Source: Magnetospirillum sp. XM-1 (GTDB lineage: Bacteria; Pseudomonadota; Alphaproteobacteria; Rhodospirillales; Magnetospirillaceae). Taken from it: a stretch of DNA of 64,000 nt. The first letter of the stretch is position 1; the number at the start of each line of letters is the position of its first letter. The notes below the pieces were generated by a model. The model was not told the DNA's origin. It saw only the letters and a program-made list of their open reading frames with translations, and did not search any database. Both the position numbers and the translations under genes were made by a program. Below, piece after piece: positions 44,327 to 55,789 of the stretch. The stretch spans positions 620,001 through 684,000 of the forward strand of contig NZ_LN997848.1 in the NCBI RefSeq assembly GCF_001511835.1, in the 5' to 3' direction.

Positions 44327-44370
44327 TGGCTGGGGCGCCAGGATTCGAACCTGGGAATGCCGGTACCAAA
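44327..44370. repeat. attL: 44-bp copy of tRNA-Gln 3' end
   Basis: Identical to 55715-55758. It covers the tRNA from the anticodon (TTTGGTACC on the minus strand) through the T-arm and encoded CCA. Beyond it the sequence diverges completely. Confidence 0.95.
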
Positions 44371-44754
44371 TCGCATAGGCTTGCTTTTTTAATAAGCATT
44401 TCAATGTATTATAGCAAGCAATAATATTGCTAACACAATGCTAACAAAACAATGATTTCACCCTCGCCGCGCTTCTGTTCAGCGCGCAGCATCTCTGCCA
44501 ATGCGAGGCATTTGCCAGAATGCTAAGATGCACGGTGATACAGTGCGATTTTCCGCTCGCACAGCAATGCTACGGATTTAAGCTAGTTGGGTGGCAGGCT
44601 TTTGGAATATCGCGTTGTATGAGCGTTAAAACGCGTTTTTGAGCGAGGCTGTGCGGCAGGGATGCCCTGTCCGGCGAAAACACAAAACGCCGCAACAGCG
44701 GCGCTTCATGAATTTTAAGTATTAAAATTTTCTGATCTGCTTTTTCGGCGCCAA
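44371..44754. promoter_or_regulatory. Island left end: integrase arm-type sites, no gene
   Basis: No supported gene. Two GCTAACA repeats at 44429-44435 and 44440-44446, 11 bp apart, match the repeats near the right end. This is the expected place for the left arm of an integrase attachment site. The segment is AT-rich near attL. Confidence 0.65.
44684..44703 (-). terminator. Terminator of the DUF3768 gene
   Basis: On the minus strand CGCCGC-tgtt-GCGGCG followed by TTTT, 51 bp after the stop at 44755. Confidence 0.8.
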
Positions 44755-45081
44755 TCAATATTCATCGGCCAGCATGATCGTGAATACGCGAACGGTTTTT
44801 TGCGGATCAGCAGGATCATCGCTGGCGTAGGCAAACGACGCATCGTAGTAGTCGATTTTCCACATGGCCTTTGTACCTGCGACATCCACCGTACCCATGT
44901 CATGCTCGCCATATGGATCGTTACTTTGATCGAATTGATCGAATTCACGGACGGCGGTGATAATGGCGCGGCCCAGCCACTCCTCAAGGGCCTGTATGCC
45001 GGATGTGATGTAGACCTTGCCGCCGATCCCGTGCTGTCGGAGCTGGTCATTCAGTTCGCGGATGATTCGGGTGCGTTGCAT
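44755..45081 (-). CDS. DUF3768 family protein
   Basis: 108-aa soluble protein. Family-typical elements: ITSGIQAL near residue 25, AVREFDQFDQSNDPYGEHDMG, MWKIDYYDASFAYASDDPADP and the final VRVFTIMLADEY. DUF3768 proteins are common on plasmids and islands of alphaproteobacteria; function unknown. GGAG precedes the start. It is separated from the upstream gene by a terminator, so it has its own promoter or depends on readthrough. Confidence 0.85.
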   Translation of the reverse strand: MQRTRIIRELNDQLRQHGIGGKVYITSGIQALEEWLGRAIITAVREFDQFDQSNDPYGEHDMGTVDVAGTKAMWKIDYYDASFAYASDDPADPQKTVRVFTIMLADEY

Positions 45082-45102
45082 GCGATGGCTCCAAAAAGAA
45101 AA

Positions 45103-45118
45103 GGGGGCCGAAGCCCCC
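45103..45118 (-). terminator. Rho-independent terminator with UUCG-type loop
   Basis: On the minus strand GGGGGC-ttcg-GCCCCC followed by TTTTCTTTTT, directly after the 45129-45584 gene. Confidence 0.9.
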
Positions 45119-45128
45119 TATGGTTCCT

Positions 45129-45584
45129 CTACTTCTTAGTCATTCGCTTACGAGCGGTGATTGCCTGAGCTTCGAGCACATCATCCAGCTCACCCGCTTC
45201 AGCGGCGGCCTTGACGGTGTTTAGCGTGGCGGCCACATCGGACAGGCTCTTGCCGCACACCACCGTGGGCTTGGACTTGTTCGCACCGAGCGTCAGCGGC
45301 TGATTGGCGTACTTGGGAGCCAGATAGAAAACATCACCCTGGAGGAACCACCAGGGTCGCACCTGCACATCATGGCTTACCTGACGGTGCGATCCATCTT
45401 CACCAGTGATGCGATGCACCTTCTGGACGGCGAAGCTCTTACCCGAAATCGCCGCTTCAACGGCACCGATCTGATTGACCACGGCGGCGATGAACTTGGA
45501 GCGGGCGCGGGTCTTGGTATTCATCGCATTCCGCGAAACCTTGGGCGGAGCAATGGTGGAAAATTCGAGGTTCTTGATGGACAT
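45129..45584 (-). CDS. Hypothetical island protein (possibly DUF6641)
   Basis: 151 aa, basic, no membrane helix. N-terminal segment is Lys/Arg-rich (NAMNTKTRARSKFIAAVVNQI); the middle has RPWWFLQGDVFYLAPKYANQPL, a compact beta-like stretch; then a helical C-terminus ending ARKRMTKK. The pattern recalls DUF6641 proteins found on alphaproteobacterial mobile DNA, from memory and unverified. A strong terminator follows, so it is a single-gene unit. Confidence 0.7.
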   Translation of the reverse strand: MSIKNLEFSTIAPPKVSRNAMNTKTRARSKFIAAVVNQIGAVEAAISGKSFAVQKVHRITGEDGSHRQVSHDVQVRPWWFLQGDVFYLAPKYANQPLTLGANKSKPTVVCGKSLSDVAATLNTVKAAAEAGELDDVLEAQAITARKRMTKK

Positions 45585-45666
45585 GATTGCCTCCAGGGCG
45601 TGATTGCACTGGAGCTAACGTCACCCAATTGGATTCATGGGTCTCCCCTGAAAGGGAATTACCTTC

Positions 45667-45813
45667 ATGCGTGAAGATAATTTTAGAGATATCAGCCTAA
45701 CCGGCTCCAAGCATGAGTTCAAAGGTGGCCAATTGGCCACCATTTTCCCGAAATCCCAAAATAATGCTGATCATGGTGAATTCAATTGGCCTAATTCCCG
45801 CATCGAGGGCTAA
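45667..45813 (+). CDS. Putative 48-aa protein
   Basis: ATG 45667 to TAA 45813, with AAGGGA about 10 nt upstream. Sequence is hydrophilic and varied (REDNFRDISLTGSKHEFKGG ... EFNWPNSRIEG), which is more protein-like than chance frames here. It contains an 18-bp perfect palindrome (45724-45741). Divergent from the gene at 45129-45584. Function unknown. Confidence 0.35.
   Translation: MREDNFRDISLTGSKHEFKGGQLATIFPKSQNNADHGEFNWPNSRIEG
45724..45741. repeat. 18-bp perfect palindrome
   Basis: GGTGGCCAATTGGCCACC. Could be an operator for a dimeric regulator or a hairpin (7-bp stem, AATT loop, followed by ATTTT). Confidence 0.6.
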
Positions 45814-46051
45814 ATATACATGTAGGTCAATGTGGTTCAGTCGACGTGCCTTTATGGGATGTCTAGTGTTGAATATAGCGCATTGACCTGCTTGATTAAC
45901 TGGATAAGGAAATGAATTTAATTTATTTCAAAGAGCAATTTACGTCAGGTGTTCAGTCGCGTGTTCGTCATGTGGTGAATAGGGCGGAAGCCCAAAGTCG
46001 GGTGTTTGGAGCCCACCACTCTGCCTTGGTGCAGGCCTGGGCCTCATGGAT

Positions 46052-46138
46052 AAACACACGACGACAAACACATGACGCTTCCCTACGGGATGTTCCTTCG
46101 GAACACATGACAGGAACACGCGACGGGAACACAGGACG
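46052..46138 (+). repeat. Five iteron-like direct repeats
   Basis: 12-bp units fitting RAACACRNGACG at 46052, 46066, 46101 (last base A), 46114 and 46127; the last three are exactly 13 bp apart. A small hairpin TGTTCC-ttc-GGAACA (46091-46105) overlaps the third unit. Spacing suggests binding sites for a protein on one DNA face over adjacent turns. Confidence 0.7.
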
Positions 46139-46271
46139 TGAATGTGTAGGGGAGTTAGGTGTTGATAAAATTTCAGCTCAACCCTCAGATTTCATGTATG
46201 CGGAATTGCATCCACAGATAAATACAAGTGCCAGCAAGGCCAGTTTCATTGCCTGCCAGTTAATCAAACCA

Positions 46272-46299
46272 AGGGCGACGTTTCCAGCGTCGCCCTTTT
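46272..46299 (+). terminator. Rho-independent terminator
   Basis: AGGGCGACG (46272-46280) pairs with CGTCGCCCT (46288-46296), followed by TTT. It ends a transcript coming from the repeat region rather than from the gene at 46330. Confidence 0.85.
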
Positions 46300-46329
46300 C
46301 AACGTTTGAATTAACAGGAGGCAATCTAA

Positions 46330-46872
46330 ATGAAGCAAATATTCAAACTTTGGTATAACGCCAATCCCAAAATGGGTTCAAAATTCCACAAAGGCTACAG
46401 CATATCTGTTGAGGTTGATGCCGTTGAAGCTTTTTATCTAAATTTCCACACGCCGGATCATTGGTATCTGCAAACCAATGCCCCTGCTCACGTTACATCC
46501 GAGCTGCTGGATAAAATCTCGCAAATCAACGACGAACGCGACGCCGATCATATAGTGCTCGCTGACTTCAAGCCCAAGCTGTATGGCCAGCACACACCGC
46601 GATGGACGTGCTTGCTTGATCCGGCAGGCAGTTTGCCTGAGCTGATCTTTGTCAGCTGGGACGACGAACTCAGCATTCAGTGGTTGATGTGTCGGGAGCT
46701 CAACCGGGGAGGTAATCGCCGCAACACCCACGTTTGGCAGGACGACTACAACGCTTTGGGAATTAGAGGTGTCCGCAAGCAGCAGGCAGCACAAGCGAAT
46801 GCGGCTCTATCCAGCAAATTCCAAGCTGAACGCAGCTTCCAGTCAACACCATCAGGGAGGGCACAGCAATGA
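46330..46872 (+). CDS. Hypothetical island protein, first of a coupled pair
   Basis: 180 aa, soluble, no family recognised. It has an aromatic-rich N-terminus (KQIFKLWYNANPKMGSKFHK, FYLNFHTPDHWYLQTN) and a polar Gln/Ala-rich tail. AGGAGG lies 9 nt upstream, so translation should be strong. Its stop overlaps the next start (ATGA). GC is low relative to the chromosome. Confidence 0.72.
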   Translation: MKQIFKLWYNANPKMGSKFHKGYSISVEVDAVEAFYLNFHTPDHWYLQTNAPAHVTSELLDKISQINDERDADHIVLADFKPKLYGQHTPRWTCLLDPAGSLPELIFVSWDDELSIQWLMCRELNRGGNRRNTHVWQDDYNALGIRGVRKQQAAQANAALSSKFQAERSFQSTPSGRAQQ

Positions 46873-47144
46873 AAAGCAAGGAAAGTTACTGCTACCTCAT
46901 CGAATATGCCGACGTGCGCTTCCACAAGGAATTTTTGGATGAAGTGGTTCCTCGGGGATACAAAAAGACATGGTGCCCCATTTATAAGCGAGAGCTGTTG
47001 GGGATGTTCGGGCATGAGGTTGATCCCGATCAATATGCCAACAGCAGCTATTACCTGGGCCATCTACCCGAGCAAAATATCCTGCTCCTCAAAATGCGCC
47101 ATTTGGGTATAAAGCGGATTTGGCGAGTAAGCGCGACGGTCTAA
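46869..47144 (+). CDS. Hypothetical island protein, second of a coupled pair
   Basis: 91 aa, rich in Tyr and charged residues (SYCYLIEYADVRFHKEFLDE, RGYKKTWCPIYKREL). No family recognised. Translation is coupled to the 46330 gene by a 4-bp overlap, so the two products probably act together. A terminator follows directly. Confidence 0.7.
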   Translation: MKSKESYCYLIEYADVRFHKEFLDEVVPRGYKKTWCPIYKRELLGMFGHEVDPDQYANSSYYLGHLPEQNILLLKMRHLGIKRIWRVSATV

Positions 47145-47153
47145 TAAACAACG

Positions 47154-47181
47154 AAAGGGACGGCCTTCAAACCGTCCTTTT
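47154..47181. terminator. Bidirectional terminator
   Basis: AAAGGGACGG pairs with CCGTCCTTTT with one bulged G, between two convergent genes. The minus-strand gene's stop codon lies in the loop. Confidence 0.75.
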
Positions 47182-47532
47182 CACGTAGCGCATCGCCATG
47201 TCGTCCAGCTTGGCCTGAAGCTTTTCATGTCGAGAAATGCGCGATTGCATGTCACCGAGTTCAAGTTGCTCGGCTTGTGCATGTCCCCCATACATCAACC
47301 CGCGAAATGCTGTCAGCTTTTGCAGCGCTTCCAGGTAGCGACGACGCAACAGCTTCATTCTGTGGACGTGCTTCAATGTCAGCTTTGGGGGCTTGTTGGG
47401 TATGGTCACTACACGTCCATTTTTGTGATCGACAGACAAGCTCGGCTTCTTACGGACTTTCAGCCTGTTGAATTTCACGTCGTAGGACAGATCGGCAGAC
47501 AGTGGTGTTTGGATGATTTCATAAAGACGCAT
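47167..47532 (-). CDS. Hypothetical basic island protein
   Basis: 121 aa, strongly basic (KFNRLKVRKKPSLSVDHKNG, KLTLKHVHRMKLLRRRYLEAL), helical C-terminal half. Looks nucleic-acid binding, but no known family. Lies 60 bp downstream of the AbiH gene on the same strand. Confidence 0.6.
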   Translation of the reverse strand: MRLYEIIQTPLSADLSYDVKFNRLKVRKKPSLSVDHKNGRVVTIPNKPPKLTLKHVHRMKLLRRRYLEALQKLTAFRGLMYGGHAQAEQLELGDMQSRISRHEKLQAKLDDMAMRYVKRTV

Positions 47533-47592
47533 GTTGATACCCTCGGCTTAAGGGTATTTATAATCGCACATAGTGGAACGTGATGCCTTAGA

Positions 47593-48477
47593 TCATGCTA
47601 CTGCGACTATTGATCCGAACACTCGGTCATTGGGCGAAATCCCAATAGCATCAGAAATATCGAATTTCGAAAATAAGTCACCCTTCTCAAAGAAGCTGAT
47701 GCGCCATTTCGGATTGTTTGTAACTTTGATTATTTCTTCAAAATAAGGAAGGTCAACCTTCGACATTGAGTGCCCTAGAACGACAACTTCATTGACGTAT
47801 TGAAGGCTTCGAAAGTAAGTGTGGTTTAAATCTATGATGTTTGATGTTGGTTTGAATGTTTTTTTAAAGTAGCTATCTATGATTTCGTTGCCCTCCGTAA
47901 CCCGCGTGTCCTGTTCTTCCAAATCGGCGTGCGAGTTTAAGGGGAGGGGTGCCCAGTCATGACCTAGAATAACGCTCCCTTTCACCGATCGCTGTCCATG
48001 TATGTGTAAAACCTGCTCATCAGGTATGCCGTAAGTCGTTTGGAGCGTTTCTGTGTAATTAAACGTCAAATATCGACCATCTTTTGGCAGCGGTAGCTTG
48101 GGAATGGAAAGCGACTGGGGGCTTGGCATAACCAACGTCGCAAGCCAGTTCTCGAAATTTAGATACAATTTCGATGAAAGTGCCGAAACAATCCGGTTAA
48201 CTTCAAATTGGTAGTCATGGTGATAAGCGTCGCTCCATTCATCCACAGCGTAAGAAACTAAAAATTTTCCAGCATCATCGGCCATAGTGTCAGTGTCTAA
48301 ATCTGCTAGCCGCGCTTCAAAAGCACACCATAGATCATCGTCAGCTCCGAGGTATCTATCAACTATTTCGAATATTTCTGGAGCCATACATTTCAAATAC
48401 ACCCCAAAGTGTTTGTACGATGTGGGGATGCCGTGGTAAAGGTCGAGGCCATTTCCTACTACGTATAATTTATTCAT
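47593..48477 (-). CDS. AbiH-family abortive infection protein
   Basis: 294 aa. Begins with the family's hallmark KLYVVGNGLDLYHGIPTSY, a nucleotide-binding-like loop. It also has YLTFNYTETLQTTYGI, VLHIHGQRSVKGSVILGHD and, near the end, VNEVVVLGHSMSKVDLPYF, all AbiH elements. AbiH was named from lactococcal abortive infection; the biochemical activity is unsettled. It stands 47 bp downstream of the DUF4041/GIY-YIG nuclease on the same strand, so the two may be one defence operon. Confidence 0.88.
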   Translation of the reverse strand: MNKLYVVGNGLDLYHGIPTSYKHFGVYLKCMAPEIFEIVDRYLGADDDLWCAFEARLADLDTDTMADDAGKFLVSYAVDEWSDAYHHDYQFEVNRIVSALSSKLYLNFENWLATLVMPSPQSLSIPKLPLPKDGRYLTFNYTETLQTTYGIPDEQVLHIHGQRSVKGSVILGHDWAPLPLNSHADLEEQDTRVTEGNEIIDSYFKKTFKPTSNIIDLNHTYFRSLQYVNEVVVLGHSMSKVDLPYFEEIIKVTNNPKWRISFFEKGDLFSKFDISDAIGISPNDRVFGSIVAVA

Positions 48478-48524
48478 TGCGCCTTGCTATTCAAATTTTG
48501 CGGATCACCTTGCGTGATTTTTCA

Positions 48525-49871
48525 TTATATTTCGTTTGGCAGATTTAATTCAGTTCTTGCGTCAAGCGCGGCAATCTCCTCGCGCCTCCGCAATAATGTT
48601 TCGTGCCATTCCTCCGCGTCACGATCTTTAAAGAAGTTTGCATCGGGGGCAAGCCTTGCAACAGCTTCCTCCACTTCATCAAGCTTAACGCGAAAGAACT
48701 CCTTCCTGAGATTCGCCATGTTAACTCTGCGATCAGAAAATTCCCTATGCAAAGCGCTTTCAAGTGCCGGCGCATCATCCGAATAAATCATAGCGTGGGT
48801 ATCAAAGGTAAAGGGAACGCTCGCATCACCTAATTCGCGAACTCGATCATCCGGATCAAGGCGACGAGTAAGGCCAATTTTTACAATGTCTTCCCCAAAC
48901 GATCCAATATTTGAAATAATGTAAACATAACCAGACTTAGTCATTTCAGCCATAGACCGAGCCCTCTCGCTTGCCATGCGGGCATCCGCAAGCAGGGCCT
49001 CTAGTTCGGCGATTCTTTTCTGGTCTACGCCTGTTTCTGACCGCGCCTGTTCTAGCAGTGACAGGTATTCTCTTTCTTTTTCTTCTGCCGCAGCAGCTTC
49101 TTCAAGCAACCTCTTTTCCTCACGCTCGGCCCTTAACTTTTCAGCTCTTTCTTCTTTTTCTGCTTTTAGTCGTTCGCGATATTCGTGGGTTAAATAAAGC
49201 TCCTGAAGCTTAAGTTCGACATAGCTTTCATCAATTTCCAGCCCGACCGGCTCATTAGCTTTGTTTATTCTCTCCGCAGCGCTCAAAATACGCTTTTCAA
49301 TTGTTGCGACATTATCTCCGCGAACACTTTCTATAGCGGAATCGCACTCAAGATTAAATGCGCGCATGCTTAAATCAGACTGCCGCTTTACCAAAGTTCT
49401 CCCCTTGGATTGACTATCTCCAACATACCACTCAAACGCACATGTACTCGGCAAGTTGGCCGCCTCTAACTTTTGCCTTTCTCTTATAGCCAATATTTCT
49501 TTCTTAAATGATTCGCTATCATTAAACTTAAATTTTGGCTCATAGAATCCCTGATTAATCTGTCTAACGTTCCAGCTATAAGCGGCAACCTCATCAATAA
49601 GCCTTCCTAGCAATTGCCGTTTCTCAGAATATGTACTGCGAACAGCATCAATGCTGCTGCGTATCTCGCTCTCTTCATTAGAGAGTCTGGCCACTTCAGC
49701 CTCTATCGAATTAAGCGGGGCAATACGATCTTTCAGCAATTTTAATTCAGAAGAAATAGCGTCTACCTGCCGATTGCTAGCGCTCAGCATTTCTCTGGTC
49801 TTAAATAAGATGACGCCTAAGGTAATTGCAATTAGCGCAGCGGATAGGGCGGCGAGGAGCGTTAATTCCAT
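48525..49871 (-). CDS. Membrane-anchored DUF4041 + GIY-YIG nuclease (SNIPE-like)
   Basis: 448 aa from ATG 49871. Residues 5-23 are one membrane helix; ~25-95 coiled coil; ~108-290 DUF4041 (AFEWYVGDSQSKGRTLVKRQ, FNLECDSAIESVRGDNVATI, then a charged helix of Glu/Lys/Arg repeats). The GIY-YIG-type (T5orf172/Mug113) nuclease is at ~313-395: GYVYI (314), VKIGLTRR (330), RVREL (343), catalytic Glu in LESALHREF (371). This order matches the SNIPE proteins reported to cut phage DNA at the membrane during entry. The frame is open to 50114; 49901 is an alternative start. I infer antiphage function from architecture and context. Confidence 0.85.
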   Translation of the reverse strand: MELTLLAALSAALIAITLGVILFKTREMLSASNRQVDAISSELKLLKDRIAPLNSIEAEVARLSNEESEIRSSIDAVRSTYSEKRQLLGRLIDEVAAYSWNVRQINQGFYEPKFKFNDSESFKKEILAIRERQKLEAANLPSTCAFEWYVGDSQSKGRTLVKRQSDLSMRAFNLECDSAIESVRGDNVATIEKRILSAAERINKANEPVGLEIDESYVELKLQELYLTHEYRERLKAEKEERAEKLRAEREEKRLLEEAAAAEEKEREYLSLLEQARSETGVDQKRIAELEALLADARMASERARSMAEMTKSGYVYIISNIGSFGEDIVKIGLTRRLDPDDRVRELGDASVPFTFDTHAMIYSDDAPALESALHREFSDRRVNMANLRKEFFRVKLDEVEEAVARLAPDANFFKDRDAEEWHETLLRRREEIAALDARTELNLPNEI

Positions 49872-50090
49872 TTTGCGATATCCGTCATTTTGAGACTTCA
49901 TAGAAACGGATGCTATGAAGTAATGGTAACATATCATTTTTGAATCACCACGCAAGCAACGACATGAATAAGGGTATGGGCGTGGCCGTTGGCAAATGTG
50001 ATGTAATTCCAAAACCATAACCAAGCGCGGATTTCCGCCGTTTTCAAAGCCCGATATCGAGGAGACCGCCGCAAAAGGTGATGTGACACT

Positions 50091-50121
50091 ACCCATAGGA
50101 TGAAAACATAACATTATGGGT
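50091..50121. promoter_or_regulatory. Inverted repeat in the recombinase promoter region
   Basis: ACCCATA (50091-50097) and TATGGGT (50115-50121), 17 nt apart, directly before the recombinase start. Possible operator or recombination site. Confidence 0.4.
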
Positions 50122-50128
50122 GTTCGTC

Positions 50129-50698
50129 ATGTCGCAAGCCAAAGTCCTGTCCGAAGCCGAGATGAAGCGCGTCCTGGCTGTGGTCGCCCAGCACGGCGTT
50201 CTTTCCACCCGTAATCGCCTTGCTGTGTTGCTGTCGCACTGGGCGGGCATGCGGGCCGGTGAAATCGCGGCCTTGAAAATTATGGATGTCGTTAATGAAG
50301 GCGGTGCGGTTCGTGATCGCATCCACCTGTCCGCGTCACAGACCAAGGGCAACCGTGGCCGCACGGTGTTCATCAACAGCAAGCTCCAGCGCGAGATCGC
50401 TCGTTACCTTGAACAACGTGAATGGACGGACGAACGCAAGGCGCTGATCCGTAGCCAAAAGGGCGGACACTTCACACCGACCACGATGGTGATGCTGTTC
50501 CGCCGGATTTACGATGAAGCGGGTTTGACAGACGCTCGCTCACACAGCGGGCGACGGTCGTATTTGACCACGCTGGCGAACAAGGGGGTTTCGGTATTCG
50601 TGCTTCAACAACTGGCGGGACACCGTAGCATCCAAACCACCCAGCGTTACGTCACGGTCAATGAAGAGATGATGGTGAAGGCGGCTGAGCTGGCCTAG
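50129..50698 (+). CDS. Minimal tyrosine recombinase (FimB/FimE-sized)
   Basis: 189 aa, catalytic domain only. Arg in WAGMRAGEIAALK, HSGRRSYLTTL (HxxR), His in QQLAGHRSIQTT, nucleophile Tyr in QRYVTVNE. The N-terminal core-binding domain of ordinary integrases is absent, as in FimB/FimE-type invertases. It is the only rightward gene in the defence block, between two leftward ones. It may invert or excise a segment, or be a shortened relic. ATG 50129 preferred; GTG 50120 adds three residues. Confidence 0.85.
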   Translation: MSQAKVLSEAEMKRVLAVVAQHGVLSTRNRLAVLLSHWAGMRAGEIAALKIMDVVNEGGAVRDRIHLSASQTKGNRGRTVFINSKLQREIARYLEQREWTDERKALIRSQKGGHFTPTTMVMLFRRIYDEAGLTDARSHSGRRSYLTTLANKGVSVFVLQQLAGHRSIQTTQRYVTVNEEMMVKAAELA

Positions 50699-50722
50699 GG
50701 GTGTCAAATGATTTGACACCCC
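50698..50722. terminator. Bidirectional terminator
   Basis: Perfect 11-bp stem GGGGTGTCAAA-tga-TTTGACACCCC between convergent genes. Confidence 0.8.
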
Positions 50723-50732
50723 CTCGCAGATA

Positions 50733-51512
50733 TCACGTCCCAGCCTTCTTGGGCTTCGGAGCATGCGAACGGACTTCCTTTGCAGTCCGCACATCACCTT
50801 CCCCATAAGCTTTGCTGACTACGAAATTGCCGTCACCATCCACCTCAGCGAGAAGCAGGTACATTCCTGCCGTCAAAGCTGGAGCGTCGGGGGATAGTTT
50901 TCCAGTGGCGACGGGCGAGAGTTCACGAAGCGCAGCGATGCCACCGGCTTTGGCCGTTTCATTATGCTCGTTGATCACATCCTGCGTGGCGGCCTTGGTG
51001 ATTTTTGCAATTCCACAAATGGGCTGCTTCTTAAGCTCTCCGTTTGCCTTGCGGTCATAACCCTCTTTGGGCTCAATCCCAAACTCGATGACTTCGGCGG
51101 CCTTCTCAGTTGGAACGTCATTCTGACGAAGCCATTTAAGAACCAAACTGTAATTTCGGTTGTTCGCACTCTTCTTACGACTTGCCTGTGGGTGGCCAAA
51201 TGCCAATCGAATAACCTGCTGCTCCAATTCCTGATTATCTCCCAGATCCTGAAACTTGTCCTGGAAGTGTTCAACGAAAGCCTGACGTTTTGGCTCAACG
51301 TGTTTAAGCAAGCGGTATGCACGCCCAATAAGCTCATACCGGCCACGGTGGACAGAAAGCGTATTAGCTTTGTTTTGCTTCTGAAGGTTCGAGACTTCGC
51401 TTTCAAACGAAATGGCGTCTGCGGTTAGCGCCTCTATCTCAGTGTCCAGTTGGTCAAAAAAACTGTGGTCTTCAATACTGTCGTTCAACATCACCTCCCC
51501 TGATAGGTTCAT
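50733..51512 (-). CDS. Unrecognised partner of the DUF5131-methylase gene
   Basis: 259 aa, hydrophilic, mostly helical. Residues ~15-50 form a coiled coil (DQLDTEIEALTADAISFESE); the middle is SANNRNYSLVLKWLRQNDVP, EKAAEVIEFGIEPKEGYDRK; the C-terminal ~60 residues look like a small beta domain (AGMYLLLAEVDGDGNFVVSK) and a basic tail. No Cys cluster, nuclease or P-loop motif found. It begins 9 bp after the fusion gene stop, so the two are surely co-transcribed. The start is uncertain: 51512 has weak SD; ATG 51491 or TTG 51488 follow AGGGGAGG. Confidence 0.75.
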   Translation of the reverse strand: MNLSGEVMLNDSIEDHSFFDQLDTEIEALTADAISFESEVSNLQKQNKANTLSVHRGRYELIGRAYRLLKHVEPKRQAFVEHFQDKFQDLGDNQELEQQVIRLAFGHPQASRKKSANNRNYSLVLKWLRQNDVPTEKAAEVIEFGIEPKEGYDRKANGELKKQPICGIAKITKAATQDVINEHNETAKAGGIAALRELSPVATGKLSPDAPALTAGMYLLLAEVDGDGNFVVSKAYGEGDVRTAKEVRSHAPKPKKAGT

Positions 51513-51521
51513 TCCAGGACG

Positions 51522-53819
51522 TCAATCGTAGAGGTTTTTGTACCAATTTAGCATGTCGATTTTTAGACTTTGGCTAAGGATTGTATGGGCAAAGTACGCC
51601 TCAGTGACAAGCAAGCCCATCATGTCCGCCCCGCGTCGCGATGCGCCCCAATCCCAACATTTCCAAAAATGGGTTGCGGCCTGGTTATCCGCCTTCGGAT
51701 CACCTGTGCGAGCAAATCTATGAATTGCATTAATGAAGTCTTGTCTGTTGGCGCCAATGCCGTGGTCTCGTTCCCTGATTGATGTTCCCCAAGATGAGAA
51801 TAAGCCGCCAGCATATTGCTTGTGAGCGCGTTCAAGCCAGGGGTCTTCAGTCCAGTAGGCGAAAAATGGAAACTCGGATACGAAGGTTCCGTCATCTTTA
51901 CGTGTCCACCTCGTTCCCCATGGCAAGGTTTTATCGAGGTCTTTTACCTCCTTCACATCGCGAGCTGTCGTTTTTTTAAATCGCCCACTCAGATACGAAC
52001 GAGGCTTGTAGTTGTAGCCGATCCTGCTTGCGACTTCTTGGAAACGGCCCTCGTCAAATTCAAATTCATACTGGGCATCCAGGCCATTCCAATATATGCG
52101 CTCAATCCAAACGAAAAATTCCTGAACATCGGCCTCATCTCCTTGGCGCGAGAAACGTAGAAGATCTTTCAGCAGCTCGACGTTAGTCGTGGCAATGGCC
52201 GTTGTTTCATGGACGTAATTTAAAATCCCTTTGATCGGGTCCGTGCGTTTTTGAACGGAAGGCCCCAGTCTATCCCAATCGTGGACTAACTCTTTGACGT
52301 TGTGGCGAGAAGCCCATGCGCTTGTTTCATCTTCCAGTCGTTTCAATAGCTGGATCAAATTGGTGAGGGATGTGATGAGCTTCAATTCAGGCCTCTTTGT
52401 GTTCGCTCTGAATGCTGCCAATTGCTTTGCTGGGTCGCCGGTAATTCCGATGAGAGCCTCCATATCTTGGATATATGGAGCGTTGTGTGTGGCGATTACG
52501 AAACCAGATGGAAACTGGATTTCTTGGACACTGTCCCAGTAATCATCATTTTCCAAATCCGATGATAGGGCGTCACCCTGGCGTAAATTTTTGGAAACCA
52601 GTTCCCTAGCTTGGGCGCTATTCCAAAGACCTGCGGCTTTGAGCACTCGAGCCCTGGCAACCAAAGTGTTGTCTGGCAATAACTCAATGCCATAGGTTGT
52701 TTCTAATGCTTGAAGTGAAGTGCTCCCTCCATTGATTTTTCGTCGAACGACCTCGACCAAAAAATTTCCGGTCCCCATTGCTGGGTCTAGGTAAGTCAAG
52801 CTTGGATCGAGCCAATCGGAAGCGGGGAGTTGATCAAGCACCTCGTTGACCAACTCAGGTGGTGTAAACACCTCGCCGTACTTTTTTTCTCTCGAATTGT
52901 CGCCGTCTGTCATGGGGCCGATGGCACCGTCTATGGTTGCTAAAGAAATTTCTCTGACATTCGTCGGCTCGAACTTTCGGCATGCCTGCCTGTGCAAAAG
53001 CACGCCATATCGCTTTTTTAATAGTCTACGCTTTTCACATACAGCAGGATGGGCTGCTGGATATTCAAGCCAATACTTTCTATCAATGGTGTGGGGCCTT
53101 ATCCGTTTAACGCCTTTACCGCCTTCGGAGCTTGAAATTTTTTGAGCATCCCCCCATTGCTTAAAGAACAATGGAACATTCTGGTTATCGCACAAGTCTT
53201 TAATTCGCCGAACCCAGGGCTCTTCCATTATGCGAGCCCCCTTTCCGCTTTCCCCGCCCAAGATTACCCAGTCAATCTCCGATAGTTCAAAATCACCAAG
53301 GTCTTCGATCAATGGCTCAATTGATACAAACTTAGTTTTTGCTGGGCACTTGCGGAGTTCTTCAAGGTAGGCCAGTGAATGTTTATCGCCAACACTTACC
53401 CCCATCCAAACATTGCTCGGCCAGATGACTTTGTGCCCTTCCGTTCCTAGCCGTTCAGCTCGCTTTGTCAGGCACAAAAATAAATTTTCAGGATGCTTTG
53501 AAAAAGCAATATGGCACTGGCTTATCCAGTCCAAATCTACTTTCTCGTGCCACATGTCGGACATAGAATTAACAAAATATATTTTATTATTTCCTTTTAT
53601 GCTCTGAAGCACTTCAGGGTGAAATTTAACTTCACCGGTCCATGAAATGGCGCCATTCTTATTTTGCACAACCCCAGTATAATGTTGTCCAGGTTTACCC
53701 ATTGTAGTCAGGCGGTAAGCCCATCGCTCTGCATAGCAGTTTTTGCAAACTGTGCTTACCCGGGAGCATCCAGCAAACGGGTTTAGGACCTCATCAGACC
53801 ATTCGATTTGAGTTGCCAC
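51522..53819 (-). CDS. DUF5131 three-cysteine domain fused to N6-adenine-methylase-like domain
   Basis: 765 aa. Residues 1-~235 are a DUF5131 (phage Gp37/Gp68-type) domain: IEWSDEVLNPFAGCSRVS, then C18, C25 and C28 with CKNCYAERWAY, NVWMGVSVGD, WVILGGESGKGARIM. These cysteines resemble a radical-SAM-like cluster site. Residues ~310-460 resemble Eco57I-type N6-adenine methylases: KKYGEVFTPPELVNEVLDQL (312), motif I LDPAMGTGNFLVEV (344), YGIELLP, and a motif IV place reading NAPY (446) instead of NPPY. The last ~300 residues are unassigned. GTG start after GAGGGGGAG. DUF5131 is usually stand-alone and paired with TcmP; the fusion is unusual. Confidence 0.85.
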   Translation of the reverse strand: MATQIEWSDEVLNPFAGCSRVSTVCKNCYAERWAYRLTTMGKPGQHYTGVVQNKNGAISWTGEVKFHPEVLQSIKGNNKIYFVNSMSDMWHEKVDLDWISQCHIAFSKHPENLFLCLTKRAERLGTEGHKVIWPSNVWMGVSVGDKHSLAYLEELRKCPAKTKFVSIEPLIEDLGDFELSEIDWVILGGESGKGARIMEEPWVRRIKDLCDNQNVPLFFKQWGDAQKISSSEGGKGVKRIRPHTIDRKYWLEYPAAHPAVCEKRRLLKKRYGVLLHRQACRKFEPTNVREISLATIDGAIGPMTDGDNSREKKYGEVFTPPELVNEVLDQLPASDWLDPSLTYLDPAMGTGNFLVEVVRRKINGGSTSLQALETTYGIELLPDNTLVARARVLKAAGLWNSAQARELVSKNLRQGDALSSDLENDDYWDSVQEIQFPSGFVIATHNAPYIQDMEALIGITGDPAKQLAAFRANTKRPELKLITSLTNLIQLLKRLEDETSAWASRHNVKELVHDWDRLGPSVQKRTDPIKGILNYVHETTAIATTNVELLKDLLRFSRQGDEADVQEFFVWIERIYWNGLDAQYEFEFDEGRFQEVASRIGYNYKPRSYLSGRFKKTTARDVKEVKDLDKTLPWGTRWTRKDDGTFVSEFPFFAYWTEDPWLERAHKQYAGGLFSSWGTSIRERDHGIGANRQDFINAIHRFARTGDPKADNQAATHFWKCWDWGASRRGADMMGLLVTEAYFAHTILSQSLKIDMLNWYKNLYD

Positions 53820-54042
53820 ACACTCCCCCTCAACATGTGTCTTAAATACAGTAAAATAGGGGGCGTGTTAGCGGAAGTAGATAAGCTTCAATCGTCCCTA
53901 TACCAGTCAACAGTGCTTTCCTGGGCATAGTGTTTTCCAGCATCTTCACGTCGCCATCCCCTTGCTCTCTGCTGCCAAGGCAGCAGGGGAACTGGCCCAC
54001 CATCCATCGACGGACACGATCTTGGCGCACATGGTTTGGGTT

Positions 54043-55437
54043 TTAACCCTTTTTGGCGTCTGGTCCATTCCGCTTCCGGTCTGGGGCGTTTATGGCAAAC
54101 ACCGCCGCCAGCTTTTCGTAATGGTGCTTCACGCTGTCCTGGCCGTAATGGCGCTTCAACATCTCGATGTCCGCGTGCCCCATCGACTTGGCGATAACCC
54201 ACGGATCAACGCCAGCGGCAAGGTTGATGGTCGCAAAGGTATGCCGTAGCGAATACGGCTCATATTTGATCCCGCACACGTCCTTGGTCAGGCCGCATTC
54301 GTCCAGCAGGTGACAGAATTGGCGATTGAAGCTTTTCACATAGGTGCCGTCAGGATTGCACAGGATGTAGTCGTCCGCGCCGATGAATTTGTTGTCGGGG
54401 TCATCCCGCCATTGGTTCAGGATGACAAAGAGACGGGTGGGCACGGCGACGGCACGATAGCTTTCTTTGCCATTTTTGCGCTTCGACGTCCTGATGTTCA
54501 GGTAAAATTCTATGGTTTGCTCATTGCCACTGGCATTGTTGCGATGAACGAAGTCGTGGGTTAAATCCCGCCACTTCAGAGGCCGAGTTTCCTCCCCAGG
54601 ACGGATGCCGGTCATCAGCAGGATGTTCATAAACACCTTGAAGACCTTGCGCTGGAAACGAATTGTCGGGCTCATAGCCACAGCTCGTTTGCCCGGCGCA
54701 CTTATCGATGCATCGTTGATACGGTCATCCACGCAGCCCAACAAAATATCAAGATGATCGCTTCGCGGATCAAACGCGGTGCGGGTGCTCTCTTCCTTCG
54801 GCGGCGATACGATTGGTGGGATCTGATCCTGGCTTATCCAATTGCGTAGCCGGGCATACTCGAAGACTTTCTTAAGCGGGATGTCCTCGTTGCGGATTGT
54901 GTTGGCCGACGGCTCACGTATCCAGCTCTTCGGCACATTCTTAACGACAGTTTTCCCGTTCAAGGTGATTTTGAATTGCTTCAAGCGGGAGCCTGGGCCG
55001 GTAAGCCAATAGCCATTGCGCCACTTGCGATACTGGTGGACGTCATATTCTGAGATTTCCCAAATTTTCTTGAGAAGCACCCCGTCGAAATAGGGCGTGA
55101 GATATCGCTCGATGGTCACGGTGTAGTCCGCATGCGCGTTCTTGGAACGGGTGGTTTCCTTGAAATCAGCAAGCCATGCCTTGGCGGCAACGCCAAAGCT
55201 GACACTGTCCAAGACACCACCGGCCCGCCTGATCCCGCGATGTTCCCAATAGATGTCCCTGGCTCGCGCTTCAGCTTCAGCGAGATTGGCGGAGCCCGTG
55301 CTTTTCAAGCGCCACTTGCTGTCACCAGCCAGTCGGAACCGTGCAAAGTAGTTGTCCGAGCGCACCAGCCCGTGCTGGAGCGTAATTTTGCCGCCCGGCT
55401 CAGGATCGGCTTGCTTGATCGTGCGCGACATGGACAC
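54043..55437 (-). CDS. Island integrase (tyrosine recombinase)
   Basis: 464 aa. Full P4/DUF-type island integrase: N-terminal arm-binding and SAM-like domains (~1-200), then catalytic domain with Arg in MTGIRPGEETRPLKW, LRHTFATINLA (HxxR), His in KSMGHADIEML and nucleophile Tyr in KRHYGQDSVKHH. It lies 278 bp inside the intact tRNA-Gln, the standard place for the gene that recombines the tRNA 3' end. The 44-bp att duplication is its likely product. Confidence 0.94.
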   Translation of the reverse strand: MSMSRTIKQADPEPGGKITLQHGLVRSDNYFARFRLAGDSKWRLKSTGSANLAEAEARARDIYWEHRGIRRAGGVLDSVSFGVAAKAWLADFKETTRSKNAHADYTVTIERYLTPYFDGVLLKKIWEISEYDVHQYRKWRNGYWLTGPGSRLKQFKITLNGKTVVKNVPKSWIREPSANTIRNEDIPLKKVFEYARLRNWISQDQIPPIVSPPKEESTRTAFDPRSDHLDILLGCVDDRINDASISAPGKRAVAMSPTIRFQRKVFKVFMNILLMTGIRPGEETRPLKWRDLTHDFVHRNNASGNEQTIEFYLNIRTSKRKNGKESYRAVAVPTRLFVILNQWRDDPDNKFIGADDYILCNPDGTYVKSFNRQFCHLLDECGLTKDVCGIKYEPYSLRHTFATINLAAGVDPWVIAKSMGHADIEMLKRHYGQDSVKHHYEKLAAVFAINAPDRKRNGPDAKKG

Positions 55438-55478
55438 AGCTTCCCAGGTTTTGGCGCGAAAAACAGCGATTTGTGCGG

Positions 55479-55692
55479 GCTAACACATTGCTGTGATTGC
55501 GGAAAATTGGCTAACACGAAGCTAACACAACCCTGCACGCGGATGCAGTCAACCTGGAAATTTTAGATTTTGCCATCCCGCATATGGTGTCTTCTTCGCG
55601 AGAAATGCGCCAATTGGCATGCAAAAATGACTGCTAACAAGCGCTAACAGGCGCCTTTAGTCGTGCTTGCCGACCGCTGGCATCTGCTAACG
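55479..55692. promoter_or_regulatory. Integrase arm-type repeats next to attR
   Basis: GCTAACA occurs at 55479, 55510, 55521, 55633 and 55643, and GCTAACG at 55686. Two pairs are 10-11 bp apart, matching the pair near attL. The region lies between the integrase start and the tRNA and probably also holds the integrase promoter. Confidence 0.7.
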
Positions 55693-55714
55693 CATTGAAA
55701 TCATTGGGAAAAGA

Positions 55715-55789
55715 TGGCTGGGGCGCCAGGATTCGAACCTGGGAATGCCGGTACCAAAAACCGGTGCCTTACCGCTTGGCGACGCCCCA
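55715..55789 (-). tRNA. tRNA-Gln (anticodon TTG), island target
   Basis: Minus-strand cloverleaf: acceptor TGGGGCG pairs with CGCCCCA; D-arm GCCAAGCGGTAAGGC; anticodon stem CCGGT/ACCGG frames TTTTGGT (TTG); T-arm CCAGG-TTCGAAT-CCTGG; CCA encoded. Its 3' 44 nt are the attR repeat, so the gene remains intact after integration. Confidence 0.97.

Follow-up and report, generated by a model that had tools for sequence, protein, structure and literature searches.

A 64,000-nt stretch of Magnetospirillum sp. XM-1 (contig NZ_LN997848.1, positions 620,001 to 684,000; the window in what follows) carries a two-gene unit whose larger product appears, from its sequence, to be a so far unique fusion: a DUF5131 domain, which resembles radical S-adenosylmethionine (SAM) enzymes, joined in a single chain to the half of an N6-adenine DNA methylase that binds the cofactor. 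An orphan C-terminus completes the chain, and a second, predicted helical protein is encoded directly downstream. We tentatively read the unit as a nucleic acid modification enzyme of a mobile element that works like the DUF5131-TcmP pair. Together with fusions of DUF5131 to TcmP and to a C5 methylase, it turns a loose gene association into a testable proposal, that DUF5131 acts with a SAM-binding partner on nucleic acid; it also draws attention to the half, permuted and split adenine methylases of viral contigs.

Two adjoining genes

Both open reading frames (ORFs) lie on the minus strand, with the lengths, positions and spacing given in an earlier note on this DNA: the fusion gene (51522-53819, GTG start, 765 aa) is followed, 9 bp past its stop, by the start of the partner gene (50733-51512, 259 aa). 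The long fusion ORF is real coding sequence, judged by its codon score, its stop counts and the improbability of so long an open frame. A codon score trained on four island genes was computed for residues 431-765: only the annotated frame scores above zero over the whole, and it also ranks highest in each of three parts of the C-terminus. Stops number 0 in this frame and 13 and 22 in its two same-strand alternatives, and 332 open codons have a chance probability of about 3e-8 at the local base composition.

A DUF5131 module that resembles radical SAM enzymes

Residues 3-234 (53118-53813, minus strand) match PF07505 at E 2e-70 and the PADLOC model PDC-M41B at E 4e-69, with the three cysteines that had been read from the sequence (C18, C25 and C28) spaced CX6CX2C. 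Across 186 distinct relatives from the fetched loci, 63 columns reach 90% conservation or more; the module retains 51 of them, including all three cysteines and the NSMSD, LTKR, EPL, GGESG and KQWG motifs. A profile of DUF5131 aligns with one of PA0069-type radical SAM proteins at an hhalign probability of 92 and a pairwise E of 6e-7 (the profiles were built on few sequences, 12 and 5). The alignment spans 160 columns, with the cysteine loops superimposed and three extra residues on the DUF5131 side. TIGR04471, radical SAM mobile pair A, matches at E 1e-18 with 67.6 bits, far below its cut-off of 355. DUF5131 resembles SPL/PA0069-type radical SAM proteins, which is a statement of similarity and not of membership; a sequence-profile search of the PDB returned no DUF5131 chain.

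Relatives of the module turn up often in records of phages, plasmids, viral contigs and genomes. The nearest among the fetched loci is L033 of Terasakiella pusilla, 45% identical over residues 1-271, and its likeness extends into the stretch after the domain; the fusion therefore seems to continue a complete DUF5131 protein. Two further DUF5131 copies are present in the same genome (G000:C1:455768-456547 and G000:C2:97722-98390), with matches limited to the DUF5131 part, and a genome of the same genus encodes DUF5131 with an unassigned 280-aa C-terminal extension (L011:1489-3093).

The methylase half and the NAPY motif

Residues 303-423 (52551-52913, minus strand) are predicted to form that half of an N6-adenine DNA methylase which binds SAM, with motif I as DPAMGTGNF at 345-353. 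PF02384 (N6_Mtase) matches residues 309-389 at E 2.5e-4, its 20.9 bits just clearing the cut-off of 20.4, and phrog_21201, a phage methyltransferase family of 156 positions, matches residues 309-415 at E 8e-16; the PF07669 Eco57I model gives no match to the fusion at E 1. All 12 columns that are at least 85% conserved are retained in this half, and motif I has Met where relatives commonly have Cys. In an AlphaFold2 prediction of residues 283-765, for which a methylase-only alignment was the input, residues 303-423 are confidently predicted to fold as a SAM-binding half, with fold matches to CamA, MmeI and BrxX; for this half, the absence of a methylase fold that had been named earlier as a refutation is not borne out. 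The matches to CamA-type structures stop at about residue 424. PDB matches of residues 310-418 to bunyavirus nucleoproteins (E 0.008) are taken as chance, because the region is modelled as a methylase half. Closest in sequence is the permuted protein P0008 (56%), and the halves at L193, L194 and L198 are 51-54% identical.

Beyond this point the evidence is thinner. The fusion lacks the motif IV pattern [DNS]PP[YFW] and has NAPY instead (residues 446-449; 52473-52484, minus strand), at the spacing from motif I expected of NPPY and after a plausible strand (FVIATHNAPY, compared with FDVVIGNPPY). Aligned locally with the canonical ORF L253 (E 1e-12), the fusion matches up to residue 449, with NAPY placed on NPPY, and the PADLOC type II methylase model PDLC03335 spans residues 308-451 (E 1.5e-5); AlphaFold2 places a short strand at 441-444 with low confidence. 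Of 46 ORFs with NPP[YFW] that can be aligned with the fusion, only two yield alignments that pass residue 449, and in the second, L250, NAPY falls off NPPY. A profile of 24 canonical relatives aligns to residue 398, with an envelope to 458, in what is a weak test given the variable spacer. The reading of NAPY as motif IV, which had been put forward earlier, is thus possible but not shown, with spacing and one clear pairwise alignment of 46 in its favour. Likewise, the view that a methylase is built into the chain is better worded as a methylase half built in, since the SAM-binding half is detected and the rest of the fold is only hinted at. Compared with gamma-type N6-adenine methylases (CamA, MmeI and BrxX), the fusion shares the SAM-binding half with motif I, but has NAPY for NPPY on that thin support and neither a detectable remainder of the fold nor a detectable target-recognition domain.

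Half, permuted and split methylases in viral contigs

Such truncation is common among the relatives. In the viral-contig set (the best 80 of 121 confirmed loci from a scan with a five-row alignment), 119 ORFs, 96 of them distinct, match the SAM-binding half: 68 halves, 39 full methylases, 9 permuted forms and 3 others. The halves (57 distinct) are shorter than 300 aa and without [NDS]PP[YFW], two of the 68 being cut by a contig end; the permuted ORFs have the catalytic motif near the N-terminus and the SAM-binding half C-terminal. A half is present at 67 loci, and 40 of these have, within 200 bp on the same strand, an ORF of 200 aa or more with [NDS]PP[YFW]. Several loci (L194, L195, L205, L221, L245 and L267), where the motif-bearing neighbour is not matched by the SAM-half profile, look like split methylases by sequence. 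In a comparison among 14 sequences, the catalytic part of the permuted form is resembled by the neighbours at L194 and L221 (best E 9e-9 and 6e-16) and, more weakly, by those at L205 (E 2e-4) and L245 (E 7e-4), with no match at E 1e-3 for L195 and L267.

Because the nearest relatives of the fusion's methylase part are halves or permuted forms, its cut is not unusual in this group. The viral-contig halves (phrog_21201 and phrog_4376, with L193 and L194 at 51-52%) have the same SAM-binding half, but they stand alone, are permuted or lie beside a gene with the catalytic motif; DUF5131 is found in none of the 119 ORFs. In one viral contig (L249:4878-6700) a stand-alone half precedes a DUF5131 gene by about 0.5 kb on the same strand.

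The orphan C-terminus and the rarity of the fusion

Residues 434-765 (51525-52520, minus strand), described earlier as an unassigned C-terminus of about 300 residues, indeed match no Pfam family at E 10. AlphaFold2 predicts them as mostly helical with low confidence, and residues 426-765 include 14 Trp. No protein relative of the C-terminus was found among 854 candidates of 183-581 aa, and none in phage or plasmid records; in whole genomes it was recovered only as itself and one borderline match (2 of 297 genomes of the order, 1 of 385 of the class). The C-terminus was also considered as the missing catalytic half, but a search of 11,295 ORFs and proteins at E 1 returned none of the catalytic halves of split or permuted methylases from the fetched loci. 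The one match in that search is a 249-aa frame at L022/L025 (E 0.0019, 27% over 85 aa; E 0.008 in the whole-genome search of the order), which by eye reads as sigma-factor-like and is taken as chance.

The chain as a whole is equally isolated. Among the 7,997 candidates scored, those sharing most words with it, 35 relatives were found at E 1e-3, and coverage above 32% was reached in the window's own copy only. None of the matching records, 200 from phages and 437 from plasmids, reached 80% coverage; the top plasmid coverage among the matches listed, 41%, spans a DUF5131 gene and the adjoining tcmP. Since no full-length homologue turned up, the fusion is not a well-known restriction-modification subunit, as a refutation named earlier would have required. 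As to a cognate endonuclease, no nuclease family was matched in the partner or in the fusion outside the methylase region; residues 434-765 and the partner, whose folds are unassigned, might still contain one.

DUF5131 partners elsewhere

The company kept by DUF5131 was surveyed in 160 loci, the best 80 each from genome and viral contigs as picked by similarity. TcmP lies within 300 bp of DUF5131 in 103 of these (68 of 80 genome and 35 of 80 viral loci), which bears out the frequent pairing stated earlier. TcmP corresponds to TIGR04474 and to PADLOC PDC-M41A, and DUF5131 to PDC-M41B; passages on the "three-Cys-motif partner" that were looked up in the literature are table rows. TcmP models match none of the 10 island proteins scanned, in keeping with the suggestion that a fused methylase module has replaced TcmP here.

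DUF5131 is also found fused to other methyltransferases or methyltransferase-like proteins. In P0003 it is joined to TcmP (TIGR04474, E 4e-58), and in a genome of the same family, at L016:1405-3507, a 700-aa protein has a C5 DNA methylase (PF00145, E 3e-60) on the N-terminal side of DUF5131 (PF07505, E 5e-61). Like the DUF5131-TcmP system (PDC-M41), of which P0003 is a one-chain form, the unit combines a complete DUF5131 with a methyltransferase-like protein on mobile DNA; unlike it, the unit lacks TcmP and has a methylase half not detectably related to it, an orphan C-terminus and an orphan partner. L016 shares the single chain of DUF5131 and DNA methylase, but its methylase is a cytosine-5 enzyme that precedes DUF5131, and it lacks the orphan C-terminus. 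A further protein, P0002, has DUF5131 with a ParB_N match below cut-off.

The 259-aa partner and a recurrent methylase locus

AlphaFold2 predicts the partner as helical, with long helices at 10-45 and 49-81 and a mean pLDDT (the model's own confidence measure) of 67; of the earlier description as a coiled-coil protein, the helical character with two long helices stands as a prediction. Its one relative is P0037, 54% identical and on a contig of 1,061 bp. No further relative was found in phages, and none in viral or genome contigs (two short patterns each, in insensitive scans); in whole genomes it occurs in 1 of 297 and 1 of 385, both the window itself. One plasmid match at E 0.8 is at chance level, and a match of the partner profile to interferon in the PDB (E 0.11) is likewise taken as chance.

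At L033, the locus with the nearest DUF5131, DUF5131 is followed by T253, a 253-aa protein of no assigned family, then by a protein of 151 aa and by a methylase that combines D12, Dam and N6_N4 modules. T253 matches 11 of 248 genomes of the order, including the present one, with G118 identical to the query. Ten of the 11 regions were compared: an L033-related methylase, complete or cut, lies 3' of T253 on the same strand in all 10, within 450 bp or one small gene, and DUF5131 is present in 4, with a DUF6641-like gene converging on the methylase in 7. A 151-aa relative of these DUF6641-like proteins is encoded on the island (45129-45584, minus strand; E 3.3e-17 with a purpose-built profile among 312 window ORFs). 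The DUF6641 match belongs to its relative L319, and the window's protein itself has no Pfam match. No D12/Dam-type DNA methylase follows among the 10 island proteins scanned, where the methylase half of the fusion is the only methylase.

The partner ranks first of the 312 window ORFs against the T253 hidden Markov model, in two colinear segments at E 0.061; it reaches E 0.31 by phmmer among 11,295 sequences and an hhalign probability of 6, and a model of the partner matched only the window's own copies among 13,051 ORFs of 319 loci at E 1. By these comparisons the partner may be a distant T253 protein. The unit and the T253-methylase-DUF6641 loci have in common a protein of no assigned family (about 245 aa in the loci) with a DNA methylase, a DUF6641-like relative (here on the island) and, in 4 of 10 of the loci, DUF5131; the methylases of those loci differ in being multi-module D12/Dam-type enzymes, and the kinship of partner and T253 is only suggestive.

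As an observation in its own right, L310-L319 form a recurrent locus of a T253 protein of about 245 aa and a multi-module D12/Dam(/N6_N4) methylase, often with a converging DUF6641-like gene and sometimes with DUF5131. Some of its neighbours we take, by eye, to be UmuC-like and resolvase-like.

Possible function and alternative explanations

Module boundaries, the intact DUF5131 signature, the predicted fold of the SAM-binding half, the two-gene layout and the island were all computed, and a mechanism can be sketched around them. The unit is cargo of an integrative island; its most likely target would be DNA, and a methyltransferase-type partner, part of the DUF5131 chain itself, would stand in for TcmP. 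The three cysteines of DUF5131 would bind an iron-sulphur cluster and DUF5131 would perform the primary chemistry, a step proposed because of profile similarity and the company that DUF5131 keeps. Since clear homology gives out short of the catalytic strand, the methylase half is unlikely to be a methylase in its own right; it might hold a second SAM or position the nucleic acid, with the orphan C-terminus and the helical partner contributing target choice or assembly, and the product would mark or alter nucleic acid of the island or host. That the unit is such a modification enzyme of a mobile element, working like DUF5131-TcmP, is a serious possibility that we hold tentatively. A bolder version, which we think improbable, is a single-chain enzyme with two cofactors, in which the radical-SAM-type module and a methylase half without catalytic strand would serve the same target and make an undescribed modification for antiphage purposes or the marking of mobile DNA; the methylase half would then be a subunit that holds SAM or nucleic acid, perhaps like the stand-alone halves of viral contigs.

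Several observations weigh against the DUF5131-TcmP-like scheme. The other 12 of the 63 conserved DUF5131 columns are altered, including a G to V change at residue 24 and Y151, where 99% of relatives have Arg; the CX6CX2C spacing departs from the canonical radical-SAM CX3CX2C, and the profile comparison with PA0069 draws on the few sequences noted above. TcmP is methyltransferase-like by weak, below-cut-off matches (TIGR00095 at E 3e-4, PF03602 at E 1.6e-4), and comparison of TcmP with the methylase half as one family gave an hhalign probability of 1; as the two are not detectably related, doing the same job is an argument by analogy. Enrichment of other DNA methylases within 3 kb of DUF5131 is not claimed for the 55 loci without TcmP within 3 kb (8 of 55, with 8 of 105 and 6 of 80 in comparison sets). 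A search of the genome with one viral query, run without a positive control, found no separate gene for the catalytic half. The link between partner and T253 is weak, and a full-text search, with bioRxiv and most subscription journals outside its scope, found "DUF5131" in no paper; among the papers listed by further searches, titles and opening lines of abstracts gave nothing on its function.

Three other explanations bear on the same evidence. An antiphage system, in which the fusion would sense or alter phage nucleic acid and the partner serve as effector or regulator, the unit being one defence gene set among several on a defence island, is compatible with the scheme we prefer. A SNIPE/PD-Lambda-1 gene and AbiH on the same island favour it, SNIPE being an experimentally shown defence nuclease according to passages of PMC13190303; so do the low-GC cargo, the tRNA site with a different insert in a relative and the listing of DUF5131 with TcmP by PADLOC as the candidate system PDC-M41. 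Yet PDC-M41 is no more than a candidate, neither protein matches a nuclease or toxin family outside the methylase region, and DUF5131 is so common in viral contigs (at least 590 of 600 pattern matches confirmed) that it would fit a mobile-element gene of any purpose. The candidate new antiphage system of the earlier note is possible at best: a neighbourhood of defence genes does not equal function. We regard an antiphage role as somewhat unlikely.

An accidental or decaying fusion, with a broken methylase attached to a complete DUF5131 and function left to DUF5131 at most, would account for the single known example, for the end of clear methylase homology before the catalytic part and for the Met in motif I where relatives have Cys. 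Against decay stand the C-terminal codons, open at odds that chance would hardly give and used like those of island genes, the full set of conserved columns in the methylase half and the abundance of halves without motif IV (68 of 119 ORFs), so that the cut alone is not damage; this explanation seems unlikely. The methylase might instead be a working N6-adenine enzyme with NAPY as an altered motif IV, the C-terminus as a new target-recognition region and DUF5131 as an accessory. NAPY at the right spacing after a plausible strand, its alignment at L253, the span of PDLC03335 and the low-confidence AlphaFold2 strand all point that way, but they are set against the two alignments of 46 that pass residue 449 and the displaced NAPY at L250, the early end of the 24-relative profile (itself a weak test) and of the CamA-type matches, and the half or permuted form of the nearest relatives. 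A working methylase is, on balance, quite unlikely.

The island and its other genes

The unit lies on an 11.4-kb island (44327-55758) bounded by direct repeats: the tRNA-Gln (ttg) gene that serves as integration site (55715-55789, minus strand) has a 44-nt perfect copy of its 3' end at 44327-44370, paired with 55715-55758. The integrase (54043-55437, minus strand, 464 aa; PF00589, phrog_1) lies upstream of the fusion, 223 bp away and in the same orientation. Just past the partner's stop, and before a converging recombinase ORF, is a palindrome with 12-bp arms (50698-50722), a candidate two-way transcription end that is absent among the terminator-like sites of the scan. The recombinase itself (50120-50698, 192 aa), a tyrosine recombinase of catalytic-domain size that converges on the unit, may be either a whole, invertase-like protein or a fragment.

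The two defence-type genes reported nearby were recovered about 0.6 and 2.3 kb beyond the unit. The first (48525-50114, minus strand) is a PD-Lambda-1/SNIPE-type nuclease with DUF4041 and T5orf172 (PD-Lambda-1, E 4e-140); PD-Lambda-1 has been renamed SNIPE, described in passages of PMC13190303 as a membrane-bound nuclease by which phage DNA is cut while it is being injected. Its listed start may be too early. It adjoins AbiH (47593-48477, minus strand; PF14253, E 2e-63), and a DUF3768 gene is also on the island.

The GC content is lower on the island: 43-55% in five of its genes and 65-74% in four right-flank host genes. The right-flank gene was found in all 16 genomes of the genus, the present one included, with a match that spans the tRNA end in 12 and not in 4, and the island interior was not found in the 1.5-kb flanks of the 15 other genomes or in four longer stretches. 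In the relative G014 (L289), two copies of the same repeat lie about 14.5 kb from each other and enclose different contents.

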